From Rhodovulum sp. (GTDB taxonomy: Bacteria > Pseudomonadota > Alphaproteobacteria > Rhodobacterales > Rhodobacteraceae): 64,000 nucleotides of DNA. The notes beneath the pieces are model-generated. The model was not told the origin of the DNA, did no database searches, and worked only from the letters and a program-made list of their open reading frames with translations. Where the stretch lies: assembly GCA_002706605.1 (NCBI GenBank), contig PALT01000043.1, forward strand, positions 62,001 to 126,000, in the 5' to 3' direction. The position numbers and the translations under genes are program-made. Below, piece by piece: positions 52,097 to 64,000 of the stretch (within the stretch, counting starts at the first letter, position 1; each line of letters opens with the position of its first letter).

Positions 52097-52948
52097 TTAA
52101 AAGTTTCTGCGTAGATAAAATCCAGCGTCCGGATTGTCGAGAATGCCCAGGATTGTGTCTTCAAATTGCGCATCATCCCAACTGATGTTACTGAGAGATA
52201 CTGACTTACCCATCCGGATTTCTGTCAGCGGTCTCTCACTATGGCCAGAAAACCTTTCCACAACTTTTTGAATCACTCGAGGTTCGTTCGTGACCAAGGC
52301 CATCATCGGACACAAGTGAATGACATTGAGCGTAAGCGACTGCCACTCAACCAAAATCTCCTTACTTACATCGACATTGTAGCCCTGCATTGGAATAAAG
52401 TTGTGGGCAATGCGATTTCTATTCGGACTGAAGCCCAAGAAAAATTTATAATCGTCTGGCGGGATAAGCGTTTCTTTAAATAGCAACCACTTACGCGCTC
52501 TCTCATTCGTTTCCGCCTCTTTCACAGCCAAATAATTCTTAGGACGAAACTCTCCGAATTCAAGGTCAACCAGTGGACACGCTCTTTCATGAAGGCAGTT
52601 CTTAAGAAAGAGCCAGCGGACCAGCGCATCGGCCTGTCTTGCGTCCAATGTTCTTTGGTGATCAACAAAAACATGACGGAAAACTGCCTCCATCTCTTGC
52701 TCAATTTTTGACCCCCAGGTGTTATTACAATCACGGCACAAAACCTTGGTCGTATTGGAAAGGATGTCGCCAGCATTTGCCCAGATACCATCAGCGACGA
52801 GTTTGTTTCCTAGCGCGTCCTGCTTCGTCACCTTGTGATTTCCGCGTTTCAGTTTCTCTTCATCTGAAGCTGGAAAATACTTTTGCGTCCAACGCCCCCA
52901 AACATGTTCTTTTGTAGCTTTACATCCGCAAAACATGCATCGCGCCAT
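52097..52948 (-). CDS. HNH-like zinc-finger nuclease-type protein
   Basis: 283 residues from ATG 52948 (GGGGGGCC upstream); the frame opens 15 codons earlier. C4-x2-C7 and E14-H15 (KEHVWGRW), then C71-x2-C74-N-N (LCRDCNNTWGS) form an HNH/treble-clef pattern, followed by a long helical region with no match I know. The gene is visibly AT-richer than its left neighbours. It lies just outside the left repeat of the tRNA-Ser element, so it may belong to an older insertion at the same tRNA. It could act in defence or DNA processing; unproven. Confidence 0.6.
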   Translation of the reverse strand: MARCMFCGCKATKEHVWGRWTQKYFPASDEEKLKRGNHKVTKQDALGNKLVADGIWANAGDILSNTTKVLCRDCNNTWGSKIEQEMEAVFRHVFVDHQRTLDARQADALVRWLFLKNCLHERACPLVDLEFGEFRPKNYLAVKEAETNERARKWLLFKETLIPPDDYKFFLGFSPNRNRIAHNFIPMQGYNVDVSKEILVEWQSLTLNVIHLCPMMALVTNEPRVIQKVVERFSGHSERPLTEIRMGKSVSLSNISWDDAQFEDTILGILDNPDAGFYLRRNF

Positions 52949-53065
52949 TTCCGGCCCCCCGAAGATTCTAGGCAACCATGAGGCGATCGCCATTTCCTAA
53001 GAACTTTGGAACTGATTTGCGCGTTTGTGCAACATTTTAACGCGTTGCAGAATCAGAAGGCAGGA

Positions 53066-53079
53066 TGGCGGAGACGAAG
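53066..53079. repeat. Left attachment-site repeat (attL) of the tRNA-Ser element
   Basis: TGGCGGAGACGAAG, identical to the tRNA-Ser 3' end at 57482-57495, in the same orientation. It is 132 bp before the recombinase gene, where an att site is expected. Confidence 0.75.
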
Positions 53080-53185
53080 TCCGCCCTCCCGCAGTCCTAG
53101 CACTTCCGCCATTTTCCGTAAAATAACTATAAATCAATAAAATATGACTTTCCATTGTCCATGTTGTTCCGTTATCGTCCAACCC

Positions 53186-53220
53186 GTTCCCCCATAAAGT
53201 GGGGGGATGAATGGGGGAAC
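53186..53220 (+). promoter_or_regulatory. Inverted repeat at the integrase start codon
   Basis: GTTCCCCCAT (53186-53195) and ATGGGGGAAC (53211-53220) are perfectly complementary. The second arm holds the ATG at 53211 and the possible SD for ATG 53223. A G6 run at 53201-53206 can pair with the same C5, so two hairpins compete. Confidence 0.45.
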
Positions 53221-54407
53221 ACATGGCCCGTGATGTGACACCAAGGCGACCGGAAAAGGCTCTGACCGCTCAGAGCGTCAGGAACGCTGTCGAACCCGGC
53301 AAGTACTTCGACGGAAACGGGCTGTACCTTCTAGTGAAGCCCAACGGCGCACGGTCTTGGGTGCAACGCATTGTCATTCGTGGCAAGCGGCGGGAAATGG
53401 GGCTGGGCAGTGCATCGCTTGTCTCTCTGGCCGAGGCGCGCGAGGCCGCGTTGCAGAACCGCAAGGTCGCGCGGACAGGGGGCGACCCGATCCAAGCCAA
53501 GCAAGAAGCTCTGACCGTCCTGACGTTCGAGGAAGCCGCACGCAAGGTACATGAAATGCACCGCCCTACATGGCGCAGCCCCAAACACGCGGCGCAATTC
53601 CTGTCGACGCTGGAAACCTATGCCTTTCCTCATATCGGCGCGCTCAAGGTCGGGGACATCAATACCAGTGACGTGTTGCGCGTCCTATCCCCGATCTGGA
53701 CAGAGAAACCAGAAACCGCCCGCCGTGTCCGTCAGAGGATCGGCACCGTGATGAAATGGGCCGTCGCGAAGGGCTGGCGTCAGGACAATCCGGCTGAGGC
53801 AATCTCACAAGCGCTTCCCAAGCATGACCGCAGTAAGGTTCACCGACGCGCTTTGCCTTATCAAGACGTGTCGACCTTTCTGGCCGCTGTTCAAGCTTCA
53901 AGAGCAGGCAAGGTGACAAAGCTGGCAATCGAATTCCTGATACTGACCGCAACCCGATCCGGCGAAACGCGCGGCGCGATCTGGTCAGAGGTCGATGTTG
54001 ATGCGGGCGTCTGGACCATCCCTAAAGAGCGCATGAAGGCGAAGAAGGAGCACCGCGTCCCGCTGTCGCCGCGAGCGCAGGAAATCCTGACCGAGGCGCG
54101 CGGGTTGTCTGATGGCTCAGACCTTGTGTTTCCGGGCACCAAGAGAGGCAGGCCCCTATCAGATGCAACCATGTCCAAGCTAGCGCGGGAAATGGGATTC
54201 GAGGTCGACATTCACGGGTTCCGTACGTCCTTTCGAACATGGGCGCAGGAACAAACAGATGCGCCGCGCGAAGTGGCCGAGGCCGCGCTTGCCCATACCA
54301 TTCGCAATCAGGCTGAGGCGGCTTATGCCCGATCAGATTTATTTGAACGGCGGCGGACGTTGATGGAAGGTTGGGCGTCTATGGTGGGAGGTGAGAGCAG
54401 TGACTGA
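53211..54407 (+). CDS. int: Tyrosine recombinase (P4-type phage integrase)
   Basis: 398 residues. An N-terminal DUF4102-like arm-binding domain (about 15-100, KYFDGNGLYLLVKPNGARSWVQR) is followed by a core-binding domain and the catalytic domain. Catalytic residues visible: Arg in TATRSGETRG, His-x2-Arg in HGFRTSFRTWA, His in AHTI and Tyr in AAYARSD. It would insert the element at the tRNA-Ser 3' end. ATG 53223 (MARDVTPRRP) is an alternative start. It is coupled to the next gene by an 8-bp overlap. Confidence 0.92.
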   Translation: MGEHMARDVTPRRPEKALTAQSVRNAVEPGKYFDGNGLYLLVKPNGARSWVQRIVIRGKRREMGLGSASLVSLAEAREAALQNRKVARTGGDPIQAKQEALTVLTFEEAARKVHEMHRPTWRSPKHAAQFLSTLETYAFPHIGALKVGDINTSDVLRVLSPIWTEKPETARRVRQRIGTVMKWAVAKGWRQDNPAEAISQALPKHDRSKVHRRALPYQDVSTFLAAVQASRAGKVTKLAIEFLILTATRSGETRGAIWSEVDVDAGVWTIPKERMKAKKEHRVPLSPRAQEILTEARGLSDGSDLVFPGTKRGRPLSDATMSKLAREMGFEVDIHGFRTSFRTWAQEQTDAPREVAEAALAHTIRNQAEAAYARSDLFERRRTLMEGWASMVGGESSD

Positions 54408-55152
54408 TGAGGCAAGGCAGGAATTCAGGGGGGCGGGTCAGAACGATGACCTGATTTACGATGAAGAGTTGGAGCAGGCATATTTCAAAAGGTTCAGGAT
54501 GGATGAGCCAGAAATTGAAGAGTTCTTAAATTGGTCAGAGAAAGCTGAAGGCTTTAAGTATCGCGTATTTGCTCAAAGTGGCGGGTTGGAGTTCGTATTC
54601 TCAGTTCAGGATGAATTCGAGCGTATCGGTGTTAAAGGTGAAGCTTTGGTGAGTTGTGTGGATGGAAATCCCCACGCGATACGTTTGGTGTGCCGAAAAA
54701 TACTCAGGCATTTTGCTGAGGTAGGAGTTCGAGCGGACAAAGGTGAAACCGCGTTGGTAGCGCGCAAAGTTCAAATTTCGACCGCCATTGTTCGCCAGTT
54801 CGTGTTGGCATCAATGGACGGGATGGAACGATACGACTGGTATCAACCAGTGCCAGAACTGCACTATCTTCTTAAGCTGATGTTTATGCCGGGCATTCCG
54901 CTTACAGAACGTAGGCGGAGGGCTGAAGATACGCGCTATTTCAGCCTTTTCGTCGCAGCTGCCCATTTTCACAAAACTGGTATAGCACCGAGCATTAGGG
55001 AGGTTGCCGCCCGGTTGGGTGTAGCCCCATCGACGTTGTCTAGGATGTTCGATGGCCCTGAGGATTTCACCAAGCAAGCAACGCTGATGCATGAAAGCTT
55101 CTCGAGCATGAATGGCGGTCAGTATTGGAGTGAGATGTTGCCGCCGGAATAA
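54400..55152 (+). CDS. Element-encoded protein with C-terminal HTH, unknown
   Basis: About 250 residues from GTG 54400, chosen because GGAGGTGAG lies 5-6 bases upstream; GTG 54391 is an alternative. It overlaps the integrase end by 8 bp. The N-terminal two-thirds are unrecognised and acidic; the C-terminal part (about 200-250: PSIREVAARLGVAPSTLSRMFDG) is a helix-turn-helix of TetR/AraC-like shape. Base composition is AT-richer than the core genome. It may be a regulator or an element-specific cargo protein. Confidence 0.65.
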   Translation: MTDEARQEFRGAGQNDDLIYDEELEQAYFKRFRMDEPEIEEFLNWSEKAEGFKYRVFAQSGGLEFVFSVQDEFERIGVKGEALVSCVDGNPHAIRLVCRKILRHFAEVGVRADKGETALVARKVQISTAIVRQFVLASMDGMERYDWYQPVPELHYLLKLMFMPGIPLTERRRRAEDTRYFSLFVAAAHFHKTGIAPSIREVAARLGVAPSTLSRMFDGPEDFTKQATLMHESFSSMNGGQYWSEMLPPE

Positions 55153-55230
55153 CTGTTGCACAGGATTGTATGTGCGCAACACCCTAAAGGTGGGGGATTT
55201 TGGTTCCGTTCATTACCGAAAGGAACCGAT

Positions 55231-55410
55231 ATGGTTGAAAGGCATCTTCGCCGCCCCGCCGTTTCAGAAATGACCGGGCTGGGCCGCAGCACCATCTATG
55301 ACCTGATGGCTCGGGACGAATTCCCCCGCCCGATCAAGCTGACCGCCAAGGCTGTCGCATGGCCCGAAAGCGCCATCGCTGCTTGGCTCAAAAGCCGTAC
55401 CTCTGAATAA
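55231..55410 (+). CDS. alpA: AlpA-family excisionase/regulator
   Basis: 59 residues from the ATG after AAAGGAA. LRRPAVSEMTGLGRSTIYDLMARDEFPRPIKLTAKAVAWPESAIAAWLKSR is the complete AlpA/MerR-like winged helix pattern, in shorter pieces. AlpA activates excision and recombinase expression in P4-like elements. Confidence 0.87.
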   Translation: MVERHLRRPAVSEMTGLGRSTIYDLMARDEFPRPIKLTAKAVAWPESAIAAWLKSRTSE

Positions 55411-55505
55411 AAGCAACCCCGCCACATGGGACGGGGTCAGAGGTTTGTCTTACAGCATCTTCAATAATCCCGCCCGTCCTGTGTGGCAAGAAAAAGGAAA
55501 TTAAC

Positions 55506-55790
55506 ATGTATAAACATGAACGTTTCTATTCCTGCCCGACACAAGTTTTCTGGTGCTGCAAGGCGCTGTTGGAAGGCCGGACCATTTCGCACAAAACGGA
55601 AATCCGCGAAGTACGCGGCTGGCGTCTGGGAGCCATCATTCATCGACTCAAGGCCAGCTACGGCTGGACAATCCTGACCGAGTACAGGGGGCCAGACAAC
55701 GTCGCTCATTACCGCCTGTCGCCCGACTGTGACCGCGCCAAGCTTCGTTTCCCGCCGTCTGCCCGGTCACTTGGGGAGGGCCTGTTGTGA
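55506..55790 (+). CDS. Small winged-helix-like protein of the element
   Basis: 94 residues. The core KALLEGRTISHKTEIREVRGWRLGAIIHRLKASYGWTI is a winged-helix-like DNA-binding unit often found beside AlpA genes in proteobacterial elements. The last codons overlap the next tiny gene (TGATG). Probably a regulator. Confidence 0.72.
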   Translation: MYKHERFYSCPTQVFWCCKALLEGRTISHKTEIREVRGWRLGAIIHRLKASYGWTILTEYRGPDNVAHYRLSPDCDRAKLRFPPSARSLGEGLL

Positions 55791-55891
55791 TGCGACACCA
55801 GATTGCCTTCCTTCGACACCGCTTTGGCCTAAGCGAACAACAGGCCCGACTGTTCGTTCCCCTGATCTATGGGAGGTCGAGCGATGACTGA
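55790..55891 (+). CDS. Tiny element gene (33 aa)
   Basis: 33 residues: MRHQIAFLRHRFGLSEQQARLFVPLIYGRSSDD. The ATG shares a base with the stop before it and its own stop overlaps the next ATG by 8 bp. SEQQARLFVPLIYGR looks like a single HTH-like helix pair. The overlap chain is the main support. Confidence 0.5.
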   Translation: MRHQIAFLRHRFGLSEQQARLFVPLIYGRSSDD

Positions 55892-56042
55892 CCGCTACAA
55901 GTTGATTTACCGCGACAAGCGCTTTCATGTGATGGCGCGAACCGCTGCCAATGCGGCTTGGTTTTCGCTAGGGGGCTCTGGCGATCTGGGGACCGCCTTG
56001 CGGCTTTGGTCGTCGCTGATCGGGTTGGAGCCGCGCAAATGA
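55884..56042 (+). CDS. Tiny element gene (52 aa)
   Basis: 52 residues from an ATG seven bases after GGGAGG (MTDRYKLIYRDKRFHVMART...). It overlaps the 33-aa gene and ends over the ATG of the next gene (ATGA). Basic N-terminus, no known motif. Confidence 0.55.
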   Translation: MTDRYKLIYRDKRFHVMARTAANAAWFSLGGSGDLGTALRLWSSLIGLEPRK

Positions 56043-56518
56043 CCCGCAAGCCCTACAAACGCGGAAAAAAGGGGGCTGGACGCTTCGTCCAGCTTACCGA
56101 ATACATGCAGGCCACCGCCGCTTGGAAAGACCTGAAACCCGGTCCACGCGCGCTGTACGTGGAACTCAAGCGGCGGTTTAACGGATCGAACAACGGCGAA
56201 ATCTTCCTCAGTCACCGGGACGCGGCAAAGGCGCTGAATGTCCATCCCAACACGGTCGGTGGATACTATCAGGCCCTTGAGGAGCACGGTTTCATCCGTA
56301 TGACCACAGGGCCGCACCTTGGACCCTCAGGGATCGGGCAAGCGGCGCGCTGGGCTTTGGAAGAAGAACGGACACCGGATGGCAAGCCAGCAACCAAGGG
56401 GTTCCTGTCGTGGTCGCCAAAGCAAAAGCCTGAGACAAAAACAGTGACACGCCGTCCCAAAAAGCAGGACATGCAGACGGACAAGGATGGTCGACCCGCC
56501 CTTAAAATTGTGACGTGA
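56039..56518 (+). CDS. Winged-helix replication/regulatory protein of the element
   Basis: 159 residues from the ATG overlapping the 52-aa gene. The basic N-terminus TRKPYKRGKKG precedes a winged helix (SHRDAAKALNVHPNTVGGYYQALEEHGFIRM, about 60-95) and a Lys-rich tail. Such proteins sit after AlpA genes in small integrative elements and may start replication or regulate. Assignment by architecture only. Confidence 0.7.
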   Translation: MTRKPYKRGKKGAGRFVQLTEYMQATAAWKDLKPGPRALYVELKRRFNGSNNGEIFLSHRDAAKALNVHPNTVGGYYQALEEHGFIRMTTGPHLGPSGIGQAARWALEEERTPDGKPATKGFLSWSPKQKPETKTVTRRPKKQDMQTDKDGRPALKIVT

Positions 56519-56748
56519 AGGCCGGATTCGTGGAAATGACCGTCACAGTTTTTCCAGCATATCTACATCTTGCCATAGGCTATGGGCGACCAAGGGGGAT
56601 ACCCCTGTTTTGTGCAAAGGAGATTGCGCACGCTGGATATGGCCCGGTTGATCCGATGCGGTCGCCTGACTTGGCCATGCCCCCTACCTGTGTCGGTCAT
56701 TTTAGGTTTTCTAAGGTCAACCGCCGTTTTTCCCTGATGATTTCGTAA
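56515..56748 (+). CDS. Possible small ORF, weak
   Basis: GTG 56515 overlaps the preceding stop and the frame runs 77 residues (MKAGFVEMTVTVFPAYLHLAIGYGRP...). The composition is not clearly coding and there is no SD; only the overlap speaks for it. The region could equally be untranslated leader of the 56766 gene. Confidence 0.25.
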   Translation: MKAGFVEMTVTVFPAYLHLAIGYGRPRGIPLFCAKEIAHAGYGPVDPMRSPDLAMPPTCVGHFRFSKVNRRFSLMIS

Positions 56749-56765
56749 AAAAGGAGCCTTGCCAG

Positions 56766-57389
56766 ATGGGCGGAATAGGAAGTGGTCGTTATGCGGGCTT
56801 TGGTGCACGGTCGACAACAGATGCGATGAGGTCGCTGGATGTGCGGCGATTTAAACGTGATGGGCTGTTGTCAGCAGGCAGTGCCTTTCAATGGCGCTGG
56901 CACCGTGACGGCGAAGTGGTCGGTTCAGTCGACGTCTCTGTCGACAGCGACGCAATGCGGCTGAGGTACAAAACGCGAGGGCATGGCGAGGACTGGCAGG
57001 CGATGAACTACCGCGTGTTGCTGGACCGCACGTTTTGCCATTATGGCGGTACGCGCGACTGGTTTATATGTCCAGCTGTCGGATGTGGCCGGCGTGTCGC
57101 CAAGCTGTACGGCGGCAAGGTTTTCGCATGCCGACATTGCCACCAGCTCACCTATTCTTCACAAAATGAAGGCCCAATGGAGCGAGCCGCACGTCGGGCA
57201 GAAAAACACCGTCGCGCGCTGGGATGGAAATGGGGGGAAACCTATGGCGAGTACGCGCGACCGCGCGGGATGCACCGAAAAACCTTCCAGCGCCATCTGA
57301 AAGCTATCCTAGATGCGGACTACGAAGTGTCGACTCAAATGACGAAATTTGCCGATGCTATGAAGTATCGTTACAGCCTAAAATCTTAG
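56766..57389 (+). CDS. Zinc-ribbon protein of the element, unknown
   Basis: 207 residues. The central zinc ribbon (about 120-150) reads FICPAVGCGRRVAKLYGG then FACRHCHQLTYSSQ, giving C-x4-C...C-x2-C. A basic helical C-terminus follows (ERAARRAEKHRRAL). This type of protein is frequent in alphaproteobacterial prophages and satellites; function unknown. It is the last gene before the tRNA. Confidence 0.65.
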   Translation: MGGIGSGRYAGFGARSTTDAMRSLDVRRFKRDGLLSAGSAFQWRWHRDGEVVGSVDVSVDSDAMRLRYKTRGHGEDWQAMNYRVLLDRTFCHYGGTRDWFICPAVGCGRRVAKLYGGKVFACRHCHQLTYSSQNEGPMERAARRAEKHRRALGWKWGETYGEYARPRGMHRKTFQRHLKAILDADYEVSTQMTKFADAMKYRYSLKS

Positions 57390-57481
57390 ATCAACGCACG
57401 CGACGTGGGGGGACATGTGGGGGGAAGAAAGGTCAATCTTAGAAGATAAGATTTATATTTCAGGCACTTACGAGTGAATTG

Positions 57482-57495
57482 TGGCGGAGACGAAG
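57482..57495. repeat. Right attachment-site repeat (attR), 3' end of tRNA-Ser
   Basis: TGGCGGAGACGAAG, same sequence and orientation as 53066-53079. It comprises the CCA, discriminator base and part of the acceptor and T arms of the tRNA, so integration restores a full tRNA gene. Confidence 0.78.
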
Positions 57496-57571
57496 GGATT
57501 CGAACCCTCGAGACGGTTTCCCGCCTACTCCCTTAGCAGGGGAGCGCCTTCGACCACTCGGCCACGTCTCC
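57482..57571 (-). tRNA. tRNA-Ser(GCT)
   Basis: On the minus strand: acceptor GGAGACG pairs with CGTCTCC, the anticodon loop in CTGCTAA gives GCT, a long variable arm (class II) and the T loop GTTCGAATC are present, and the CCA is encoded. 90 nt with CCA. Confidence 0.95.
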
Positions 57572-61486: not shown

Positions 61487-63337
61487 CTATCCCAACGCCC
61501 CCTCTATATCCGCCCGCCGATACCACAACCGCCCTTGGGCCGTGGCATCATTGATCGGGGTGATCCCAAGGGCATCCAATTTGTATTTCACGCCCAGCCG
61601 CCCCACGCCGGCCTTCGCGGCCAGCTCCTGAAGGAGCACGTAGTCGCGAAGGAATGCCTCGATCCCGGCGATGTCGAACAGCTTCACGCCGCGGCCGCGG
61701 GTGTTGGGCTCAACATGATGGGCAAGGTAGGGCGTCCCATCGGGCCCACGCAGCCTCGCCAGATTGCGGAATTCGCTCTGCCGCATGCCGAGCAAGGCAG
61801 CAGCCTCGAAGCTGCCAACGCGGCCGTCGCCCTTCATGCGCGCCAATGCGTCCCGCACCTCGACCGGGTCGACCAGCAAGCCCTGCACCTTCAGCTCCGG
61901 ATCCACGATTTCGACGCGGCTCAAGGCACCTGATAGAATGCCCTGGAAGACATCCAACGCCGGCCACCGGGATCGATCGACTGCGGCATCGATGCTCATC
62001 ATGCCTTCGGAGGGTGCTTTCACCCGTTCGGCCTGTGCCAGAAGGTCTTCGAGAAAGGCTTCAGCGGATGCGAAGACGATTGTCTTGCGCGTCGACCGCA
62101 CCTCGCCATCTTCGCCATGCATCCGCGAAATCAGCCCTACTCGAACGAGATCTTCTGCCTGCTTGAACGTCGAACCGAGGAATTCGGCCAATTCCGCGAT
62201 CGACATTGCGGACAGCATCATCTCCGTCAGCGCTTCCCCCTCTTCGGCATCGAGGATCTCGTAAGAGCGCGGTTTTCCCAGCTCAGCATCAAGCAATCCG
62301 TTCAGGATCGCGGCCCGCTGCACAGCCCGCGAAGTGATGCCCGCCTTCTTTGCCAGGCTGTAGACGGAGTGAACGCGTTGCCGGTCGACCGGCTCCCCGA
62401 ACAGCATGGTGCCGAGTTCATAGGGGAAGTGGTCGAGGAACAGCTCCCGGACCACCTCCCCGATCGGCCCCTTCCCCTTCGCGTCCTGCCGATACTGGAG
62501 CCACTTGTAGAGACAACCAAACACCTTTTGCGCACCACCCGACCGGTCACCGGTCAATGCCGCATCCATGCGCTCCTGCAAAGCAGCTCGAATGGCCTCG
62601 CCGCCCCTCGCAGCAATTTCAAAGCCATGCTTTCCGGCCTGATGCCAGTCCTCTTCGCCCAAGCGGGACAGCGAGATCATGGGCGGCTGAAGGAGAAACA
62701 TCCCCAGCATCTCGCAGGCGCGGGTCGCCACATCGATCGGCTGCTCATCAAGCCAAGCAGGCCCCGCCTGGCCCGACAGCCGGCCCGAGACATATGCCTC
62801 CAGACCCGACCACTCCCGCGCCGTTGCTTGATCGGCAATCCCTGCCAGCGCCTTCTGATCCGGCGTGATATCCACGATCATCTGCAGGCTTTTCGGAGAA
62901 GACTGGATGTTACCGGGAAGTAGCGCCACCCCGTGAACTGGGCAGCTGCGGATATGGGCCACCTGCCACCCGATACGGCCGACGGGCACGCCTTGCGATG
63001 GGCTGTCAGGCTTCAAATCCTCCAGGAGGCACTTCGGGCAATACTTGCTCTTCCGGATATCGCCGAATTCGAACTGCACCGGCAGGCCAGCAAGCATTCG
63101 GTCCCCGTCCCCATCCACCGTGAAGGTCATCTCGCCCAATCGGCTCACAGGCAGGCCCAATAGCCCCTCGAGGCGATCAAGAGTTTCAGAACCCGGTGCC
63201 GTCAGCGCGGCGCGCGGCAGATCCACGAACGCGAGGAAATCATGCAGCCCCATGCCGCAATGCCACTGTGCGGACCGGTTCAAATACGAGGTCAGGCATT
63301 CGCCTGCGATGACGGGAAGGATCGGATAAAGCGCCAT
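61487..63337 (-). CDS. tniQ: TniQ-family transposon target-selection protein
   Basis: 616 residues. The N-terminal TniQ domain (PVIAGECLTSYLNRSAQW) carries a zinc finger C100-x2-C103...C132-x2-H135. The protein is longer than TniQ of Tn5053 (about 400) and closer to TnsD, with several HTH-like blocks (FEAAALLGMRQSEFRNLARLRG; a terminal VGRLGVKYKLDALGITPIN) that may read the target site. Its start is 2 bp after the true stop of tniB. The cargo genes follow downstream. Confidence 0.85.
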   Translation of the reverse strand: MALYPILPVIAGECLTSYLNRSAQWHCGMGLHDFLAFVDLPRAALTAPGSETLDRLEGLLGLPVSRLGEMTFTVDGDGDRMLAGLPVQFEFGDIRKSKYCPKCLLEDLKPDSPSQGVPVGRIGWQVAHIRSCPVHGVALLPGNIQSSPKSLQMIVDITPDQKALAGIADQATAREWSGLEAYVSGRLSGQAGPAWLDEQPIDVATRACEMLGMFLLQPPMISLSRLGEEDWHQAGKHGFEIAARGGEAIRAALQERMDAALTGDRSGGAQKVFGCLYKWLQYRQDAKGKGPIGEVVRELFLDHFPYELGTMLFGEPVDRQRVHSVYSLAKKAGITSRAVQRAAILNGLLDAELGKPRSYEILDAEEGEALTEMMLSAMSIAELAEFLGSTFKQAEDLVRVGLISRMHGEDGEVRSTRKTIVFASAEAFLEDLLAQAERVKAPSEGMMSIDAAVDRSRWPALDVFQGILSGALSRVEIVDPELKVQGLLVDPVEVRDALARMKGDGRVGSFEAAALLGMRQSEFRNLARLRGPDGTPYLAHHVEPNTRGRGVKLFDIAGIEAFLRDYVLLQELAAKAGVGRLGVKYKLDALGITPINDATAQGRLWYRRADIEGALG

Positions 63338-63339
63338 GA

Positions 63340-64000
63340 TCAGCCCCGCGTCTTGCGCTTGCGGCTGCGTTTGGGAGCGGCCTTGGCCGGTGCGAGCTCC
63401 TCATCGTCCGGCTGGACGATGCTGGTCCATTCCGACACGGCAAAAATGTTGGCCGTGATCTCGCAGCCCTCTCCGTGCCATAGGCCAGCTCGAAATGCTC
63501 GATCGTCAGCTTCGACGCCTTGTCATGCAGCGCGGCCTCGACCGCCTTCAGGATCAGGTAGATGCAACGGCCGAACCGGTGCCGCCCTGCGCGGATGATC
63601 CGGTTGATGGTCTCGCCAGAAACATCCAGCTTCAAGCCCGCTTTTTTCGCATAGGCTCCGGTGATCGCCTCGATCAGCTCGTTGTCGGTCGCGAACTCAA
63701 GCTGCGGCGGGCAGATCTTCGAGAAACGGCGGTTCACCTGGGGATCCAGGCCGGTGATCTCCTTCAGCCGGTCCGTGCCCGAGAGCACGACAACGACCGG
63801 ATGGTCCCCCTGCATCAGGCCCTTCAGCATCTTGAACATGGATTGCGTTTCGGCCGCCATGGTTTCCTTGAACATGTCTTGGGCCTCGTCGATCCAGACC
63901 AGCGTCACCCCGAGGATGCGCAACCGGCGCCGGACAAGATACCAGATCTCGTAGACCTTGGTCCGGTCCGCTACATGGTCGATCCCGAGCTTCTTTAGCA
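63340..64000 (-). CDS. tniB: TniB-like AAA+ transposition ATPase, frameshifted and cut by window edge
   Basis: The window end truncates the N-terminus (no start within it). The Walker B TLVWIDEAQDMF, sensor LSGTDRL and RRFSKICPPQ regions identify TniB/TnsC-type ATPases. After ELAYGTE (about 63471) the frame runs into another; in the next frame a natural C-terminus (EITANIFAVSEW...KRSRKRKTRG) stops at 63340, 2 bp before the tniQ start. A one-base change near 63469-63473 (GAGAG region) separates the two, either a real mutation, a recoding site or a sequence error. Read unbroken, the frame runs to 63240 over tniQ with unlike sequence. Confidence 0.78.

Follow-up and report, generated by a model that had tools for sequence, protein, structure and literature searches.

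We analysed a 64,000-bp stretch of Rhodovulum sp. DNA (contig PALT01000043.1; hereafter the window) that contains a short integrated element. The element lies between two exact copies of a 14-bp direct repeat, TGGCGGAGACGAAG, at 53066-53079 and 57482-57495, which bound an insertion of 4,416 bp. The sole tRNA that ARAGORN found in the window is tRNA-Ser(GCT), with an encoded CCA, and since this gene spans 57482-57571 on the minus strand, the right repeat is the 3' end of the tRNA. The repeat is exactly 14 bp long, the sequences beyond both copies being different. It has no third exact copy in the window, where one extra place fits with two mismatches, and at the 6e-5 occurrences per 10 kb expected on one strand from base composition, a chance origin is negligible. 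The element is inserted at the 3' end of tRNA-Ser and leaves the tRNA whole. It is present as a single copy in the window's genome. The original prediction for this DNA had described perfect repeats at the tRNA-Ser end and a tyrosine recombinase 132 bp inside the left copy; both descriptions proved exact, int starting at 53211.

Besides int, the element comprises seven open reading frames (ORFs; Table 1). The integrase, P0001, matched the Pfam families Phage_integrase (1.3e-17), Arm-DNA-bind_3 and Phage_int_M. The next gene, P0002, overlaps the end of int by 8 nt from its GTG start, or by 17 nt if the start is at 54391. P0003 matched, in addition to Phage_AlpA, a PHROG family of excisionases and transcriptional regulators (4.4e-12), and by these similarities alpA is probably the switch for excision and activation. 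ORF and profile scans upheld the predicted gene list (int, a helix-turn-helix (HTH) protein, AlpA, small genes, a second HTH protein and a zinc ribbon), and, as had been anticipated, Pfam, PHROG and NCBIfam scans of the element ORFs revealed no capsid, portal or relaxase gene. The same scans, to which later statements on the window element also refer, yielded no capsid-remodelling, terminase or packaging gene and no recognised helicase or primase. Phage structural families were absent at E 0.05 when the eight ORFs were compared with Pfam and PHROGs (best values 0.075 and 0.089).

Table 1. Features of the integrated element, in window coordinates
Feature	Position	Strand	Remarks
Left attachment repeat, displaced copy of the tRNA-Ser 3' end	53066..53079	.	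exact 14-bp match
int (P0001), tyrosine recombinase, 398 aa	53211..54407	+	Pfam PF00589, PF13356, PF22022
P0002, 250 aa, overlaps the end of int	54400..55152	+	GTG start; weak C-terminal HTH matches
alpA (P0003), 59 aa	55231..55410	+	Pfam PF05930 Phage_AlpA, 1.1e-17
P0004, small conserved protein, 94 aa	55506..55790	+	58-87% identical copies at ten other loci
P0005, overlapping ORF, 34 aa	55787..55891	+	homologs in the same position, e.g. L033, L049, L097
P0006, overlapping ORF, 52 aa	55884..56042	+	homologs in the same position, e.g. L033, L047, L097
P0007, candidate replication initiator, winged helix, 159 aa	56039..56518	+	PHROG match, model fold
TTGTGACG, left arm of inverted candidate initiator sites	56508..56515	+	
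CGTCACAG, right arm of inverted candidate initiator sites	56541..56548	+	
Conserved 25-bp box, candidate origin core	56557..56581	+	
Conserved leader motif, 19 nt, 14 nt before P0008	56733..56751	+	28/30 genes
P0008, in the variable slot, 207 aa	56766..57389	+	conserved GGxGSGR start; zinc ribbon Cys102, 107, 122, 125
Right attachment repeat, within tRNA-Ser	57482..57495	.	exact 14-bp match
tRNA-Ser(GCT), kept intact despite the insertion	57482..57571	-	ARAGORN

A recurrent gene set at tRNA 3' ends

The recurrence of the gene set between similar repeats, which the original prediction had left to homology searches, was observed in other genomes at tRNA ends. At E 1e-3, P0007 matched 51 of 388 genomes of the same bacterial family and P0008 43 of 394; a P0007 match of at least 80 bits was present in 25 of the 388 (about 6%, the window's genome counted). 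Forty wider stretches around P0007 or P0008 matches were fetched from genomes of this family, and we added two named genomes, those of Tropicibacter naphthalenivorans (L033) and Paracoccus zeaxanthinifaciens (L034), which were the only loci returned by one scan of genome contigs with P0007. Together with five plasmids, these 42 genomic loci made up the 47 that were compared by protein, some of them fetched for P0008 alone.

The order that recurs is int, an int-overlapping gene, alpA, small genes, P0007 and a variable slot, all between a repeat and a tRNA 3' end. In 28 of the 47 loci int lies ahead of P0007, and 20 of these have an AlpA match in between; the remaining loci are mostly those fetched for P0008 only or with one end missing. 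An int gene is present in 33 loci (window included), 26 with a tRNA in the stretch and seven without. A repeat of the tRNA 3' end, 14-52 bp long, occurs 78-254 bp before int in 22 of these 26 (window again included), and in a 23rd, L059, it falls within the 5' part of the int ORF, which is overlong there. The repeat-bearing targets are tRNA-Ser, Leu, Thr, Phe, Ala, Arg and Asn. Int is 62-85% identical to that of the window in ten other loci with tRNA-Ser downstream (L040 included), and 26-52% identical in thirteen loci with the repeat at other tRNAs; as far as these identities go, Int similarity splits according to the tRNA target. This comparison omits L051 and L102 (45-46%), in which tRNA-Ser lies on the other side and has no repeat. 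The closest relative overall is the Tropicibacter element (Int 81%, AlpA 78%, P0004 87% and P0007 84% identical), which is followed by tRNA-Ser(GGA) and whose int-overlapping gene product has no match to P0002 of the window at E 1e-5.

The gene next to int changes between elements. The gap between int and alpA contains a gene of at least 100 aa in 15 of 20 elements. Its overlap with int is 1-17 nt in 11 elements and 41 and 67 nt in two (as measured on the longest ORF, the start being uncertain), with none in the other two, and the 15 proteins fall into 12 families at E 1e-5. An HTH in these proteins was considered and dropped: it could be made out by eye near many C-termini, but a Pfam HTH match at E 1 was obtained for 1 of 10 proteins scanned, in addition to the weak matches in P0002.

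Eighteen elements, each from a different genome, have a P0007 match and both ends. They measure 3,751-8,260 bp (median 4,356), and include L055, of which the P0007 match is weak (36%). For a 4.6-kb relative at tRNA-Leu (L095), eight further genomes of the same genus were compared. In two of them (L158 and L160) the left flank directly adjoins the right one at the repeat, forming a precise empty site, which bears on the family and not on the window copy; L159 has part of the left flank about 1 kb away, and in the other five the left flank is unrecognisable. None of three relatives compared for L097 retains its left flank, and searches with both flanks of the window element in 61 genomes gave no matching flank pair. 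The family architecture is conserved, and the window copy is a real, intact-looking member of the family. No report of such elements was found among the matches listed in literature searches, and the words 'satellite' and 'AlpA' do not occur in the accessible text of papers on Rhodobacteraceae and Paracoccus prophages (PMC8224337, PMC6536676).

One contig (G141:C1) has four P0007 places (L050, L091, L092 and L102), and such elements may therefore coexist in a chromosome. Just outside the Paracoccus element lies a broken second integrase (L034, 1021-2231, minus strand), which may reflect more than one integration event close to the same tRNA.

The candidate initiator, its origin-like DNA and the cargo slot

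P0007 has a weak PHROG match to a replication initiation protein (2.6e-4). Its AlphaFold model, built with 29 sequences (pLDDT 85), had as top Foldseek matches 4pql, 5kbj, 4pt7 and 4pta (E 1.4e-3 to 6e-3), and in VIA the same structures took the top four places (Z 8.2-9.3, rmsd 4.5-5.7). These are plasmid initiators, of the RepA_N kind. The model may share a fold with them and with the N-terminal domain of DnaD, identity being 16-19% in the fold alignments.

Directly after P0007 sits a conserved 25-bp box with the consensus ACATATATACATCTAGCCATAGGCA. It occurs with at most five mismatches in 24 of 71 loci, in each case no farther than about 1 kb from a P0007 match, and did not occur in one shuffle of the 938 kb scanned. 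Twelve of 25 box regions, that of the window included, carry TTGTGACG and CGTCACAA upstream of the box in inverted orientation, 33-35 bp apart (one mismatch permitted per arm); none of the 25 did so in any of 200 shuffles. Different repeats were seen by eye in some of the other 13 regions (L094, L104 and L134). In L097 the whole origin-like module is inverted relative to P0007, which speaks against a cargo promoter. The core pattern TAYATCTAGCCATRGG gave 14 exact matches in 13 of 384 genomes of the same family, 13 of them no more than about 1.1 kb from a P0007 homolog; the window's own box is one base off this pattern and hence outside the 14. From these findings we infer that the module is a candidate replication origin and P0007 its candidate initiator.

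We considered the possibility that the box is the cos site of a helper phage, and rejected it. The exact 19-mer was found in only one IMG/VR contig, L134, and since this contig itself encodes a P0007 homolog (and, judged by sequence, a portal-like protein), the box tracks P0007 within these searches. A degenerate 22-base form of the box matched no IMG/VR contig, its first bases not fitting L134 either, and the one match that blastn of the box gave in phage records was 22 bases long, in 42 records of Klebsiella phages (E 5). No helper candidate emerged from these searches of phage and IMG/VR records.

The slot between the origin-like DNA and the tRNA holds an MmeI-type IIG restriction system in L055 and a PIN protein in L056, and in L052, which has no P0007 match, it holds a type I restriction system; PADLOC gave no strong match for 7 of 10 cargo proteins scanned. 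This suggests that the slot carries exchangeable cargo, as satellites carry defence genes. In the window it is occupied by P0008. At E 1e-3, Foldseek matched the model of this protein (pLDDT 90) to nothing in PDB (best 0.1) or BFVD (best 0.067), its VIA list mainly covers a long helix at residues 135-207 and barely touches the remainder, and its sequence had no match in PDB at E 0.1 (best 0.8).

A highly conserved leader, CCNAATGATTTCGGNAAAA, stands 11-17 nt ahead of the ATG in 28 of 30 P0008 genes at no more than three mismatches, compared with a shuffle mean of 0.005; L039 lacks it, and the count omits L126, the remaining one of 31 genes, of which the start could not be placed. Among five more plasmid genes inspected by eye, the leader was recognisable in Haloferax, Alicyclobacillus and Legionella, and was not clearly seen in Psychrobacter (start not placed) and Methylobacterium. 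It can thus be recognised by eye even in an archaeal plasmid (the leaders compared include L207, L208 and L209). By eye, neither an RNA hairpin nor a coding peptide accounts well for the leader: the TTGCC/GGCAA arms of the hairpin do not covary, and the peptide would share the P0008 frame in just part of the genes and, in the window, would lack a start codon upstream.

On a number of plasmids an alpA-like gene, a replication gene or both come before P0008. The order in Legionella is AlpA, a RepB-type primase and P0008; in Psychrobacter a Gp2-type protein precedes P0008; and on the small or large plasmids L035, L036, L038 and L209 an HTH/alpA-like or replication gene comes before it. This suggests a P0008 cassette common to plasmids and integrated elements. 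A 464-aa ORF in L008 (1438-2832, minus strand) has a match to the N-terminal half of Int followed by one to P0008, possibly a natural fusion or the result of a deletion.

Phage-like relatives and the proposed route of transfer

With the P0007 alignment as query, 16 IMG/VR contigs were found. In 10 of the 16, an int match precedes the P0007-like gene, and six of these also have an AlpA match, several of them weak. A large terminase is encoded in all eight records chosen for a search, that of L134 included. L115 and L119 encode terminase, HNH, major head, protease and portal proteins. L119 is 10.4 kb long, has at both ends a repeat (40 bp or more) of tRNA-Lys and contains int, alpA and the P0007-like gene; no tail gene was detected at E 1e-3 among its 13 scanned ORFs. 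G427 also contains the box, and its P0007 homolog is 42% identical to the L057 protein; G428 has an Int 65% identical to that of L034 and an AlpA 68% identical to that of L093. Both encode a tape-measure protein, and G427 also major tail and tail chaperonin proteins. The idea that all capsid-bearing relatives are cf-PICIs is ruled out by these tail genes, L119 alone looking tail-less; the records may be fragments. The P0008 alignment retrieved seven IMG/VR contigs (29-53% identity), among them L126, in which tRNA-Ser(GCT) comes right after P0008. Judged from these gene contents, an int-alpA-P0007 core circulates among capsid-less, head-only and head-plus-tail elements, which supports a phage-related biology and leaves satellite status unproved.

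We favour, with moderate confidence, the view that the window element is a compact, capsid-less integrative element of the satellite type; the family as a whole is most likely phage-satellite-like. The original prediction had proposed either a minimal phage satellite or some different compact mobile element. The recurrent gene set, the empty site of a relative and the distant capsid-encoding kin bear out the compact mobile element, while the word 'phage' is as yet unproved, no helper having been found.

According to this model, the element would sit in the chromosome in its resting state until alpA is turned on by a trigger, which would most likely be a helper-phage infection. AlpA, Int and P0002 would then excise a 4,416-bp circle, and P0007 would bind the inverted TTGTGACG/CGTCACAG sites beside the 25-bp box and start replication, presumably with host or helper machinery because no helicase or primase was recognised in the element. 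The multimeric DNA would be packed by the helper phage and injected into a new cell, where Int would insert the element into tRNA-Ser.

Several observations weigh against this view. No helper phage, packaging site or evidence of particles was found. P0004, P0007 and P0008 had no match in 50,697 phage records, and P0007 and P0008 as single-protein queries had none in IMG/VR. The kinship of P0007 with capsid-encoding elements is weak (26-38% identity, and 42% between L134 and L057), and G427 and G428 may be small phages rather than satellites, since they encode tail genes. The initiator match of P0007 is modest, with the winged helices of LexA, TFIIE and RbkR just below it (Z 8.0-8.1). One exact match to TAYATCTAGCCATRGG (L211) has no P0007 alongside, and the reversed control pattern gave two matches. 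Three tRNA loci (L040, L051 and L102) have no repeat of at least 11 bp. Finally, the 32 plasmid records that carry P0008 relatives would fit a plasmid or mobilisable element too.

This last point leads to the strongest of the other explanations, which we regard as unlikely: an integrative element mobilised by conjugation in trans (hitching, by means of an oriT only, on a conjugative plasmid or integrative and conjugative element), or an integrated mini-plasmid. In its favour, the window element has an initiator-like gene with origin-like DNA beside it, and several of the plasmid P0008 genes adjoin HTH/alpA-like or replication genes, 29 of the 32 plasmid records being typed as non-mobilizable. 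Yet the element has no relaxase match, P0007 itself matches just three plasmid records (31-57% identity), and the core is held in common with capsid-encoding elements.

We consider it quite improbable that the element is the remnant of a decayed prophage whose left end (int, alpA and initiator) outlasted a deletion of the structural genes. The int genes before P0007-like genes in 10 of the 16 IMG/VR contigs (six with AlpA), the large terminase in all eight records searched and the tail genes in two of them are in line with such a descent. However, the compact form recurs with both repeats in 18 different genomes, 13 of them with elements of 3.75-4.71 kb, and independent decay would not produce such a recurrence at similar size.

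We give very little credence to the idea that the members of about 4 kb parasitise a gene transfer agent (GTA), with multimers from their own origin filling GTA heads and recircularising in the recipient: it agrees with the accessible text of PMC6854486, in which RcGTA carries about 4 kb and headful packaging is predicted, with a GTA_TIM gene, a GTA component, in the window's genome (G000:C25:118830-119720) and with the 13 of 18 elements at 3.75-4.71 kb, but nine of the 18, the window's included, exceed 4.4 kb and five reach 5.07-8.26 kb, a minimal gene set accounts for the size without GTAs, and GTA packaging, in the same text, looks random, with no sign of replication in the packed DNA. If true, it would amount to a mobile element needing neither phage nor conjugation.

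Two neighbouring regions may hold other mobile DNA. To the left of the element, a 298-aa protein (52097-52993, minus strand) has weak matches to HNH_5 (0.011) and phrog_38451 (3e-5) and may belong to another mobile segment. About 4 kb to the right of the tRNA (61487-63923, minus strand), two ORFs resemble, by eye, what we take to be TniQ and a TniB-type ATPase of a Tn7/Tn5053-like transposon.

Comparison with known systems

About 6% of the sampled family genomes carry a P0007 relative, and no description of these elements was found among the matches listed in the literature. If they are satellites, they are among the smallest, and the plan of the phage-inducible chromosomal minimalist islands (PICMIs), with int, int-overlapping gene, alpA, replication gene and cargo slot, would also occur beyond Vibrio, with another replication gene. 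Moreover, the window element offers a small testable system, with one candidate initiator, one candidate origin and one candidate excision switch.

In the accessible text of PMC10803314, PICMIs are described from Vibrionaceae; the mandatory set in the authors' model is int, alpA and prim, co-located; excision requires int, the int-overlapping gene and alpA; the gene iolg, which overlaps int, changes between elements; and the authors never saw two PICMIs in one genome. The window element is likewise very small, with int, a variable int-overlapping gene, alpA, one or more small genes and a candidate replication gene, and it too has a cargo slot adjoining the attachment site and no capsid or packaging genes. 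P0002 occupies the position of iolg. Of the set int, alpA and prim, the window element has the first two, the primase being absent from its Pfam, PHROG and NCBIfam matches; a winged-helix candidate initiator with origin-like DNA stands there instead. PICMIs insert at fis, whereas the window element is at tRNA-Ser(GCT) and its relatives are at tRNA genes. Two features that define PICMIs, the primase and fis-site integration, were not found in the window element. The hosts differ as well (Vibrio for PICMIs; Tropicibacter and Paracoccus for the named relatives of the window element), as does the number per genome, G141 holding four P0007 places. PICMIs are packaged as a concatemer in a virulent helper phage, whereas no helper was found for the window element.

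The genomic islands at the tmRNA site of Pseudomonas that are moved by jumbo phages (PMC12595487) are similar, by the description in the accessible text, in having a tyrosine integrase, direct repeats, an RNA-gene target and no genes for autonomous transfer. They differ in their tmRNA target and in the putative phage defence systems present in each, the likeness being one of description.

P4-like satellites have primase-helicase, psu, sid-type and delta genes. None of these families is among the Pfam, PHROG and NCBIfam matches of the window element. The cf-PICIs have capsid genes of their own, whereas the window element has none, capsid genes being present only in distant relatives. One of these, the 10.4-kb L119, with its tRNA-Lys repeats, head genes and no tail gene found, resembles cf-PICI/PICI satellites, and the order int, alpA, replication gene in cf-PICIs and other PICI satellites matches that of the window element, with P0007 as the candidate replication gene.

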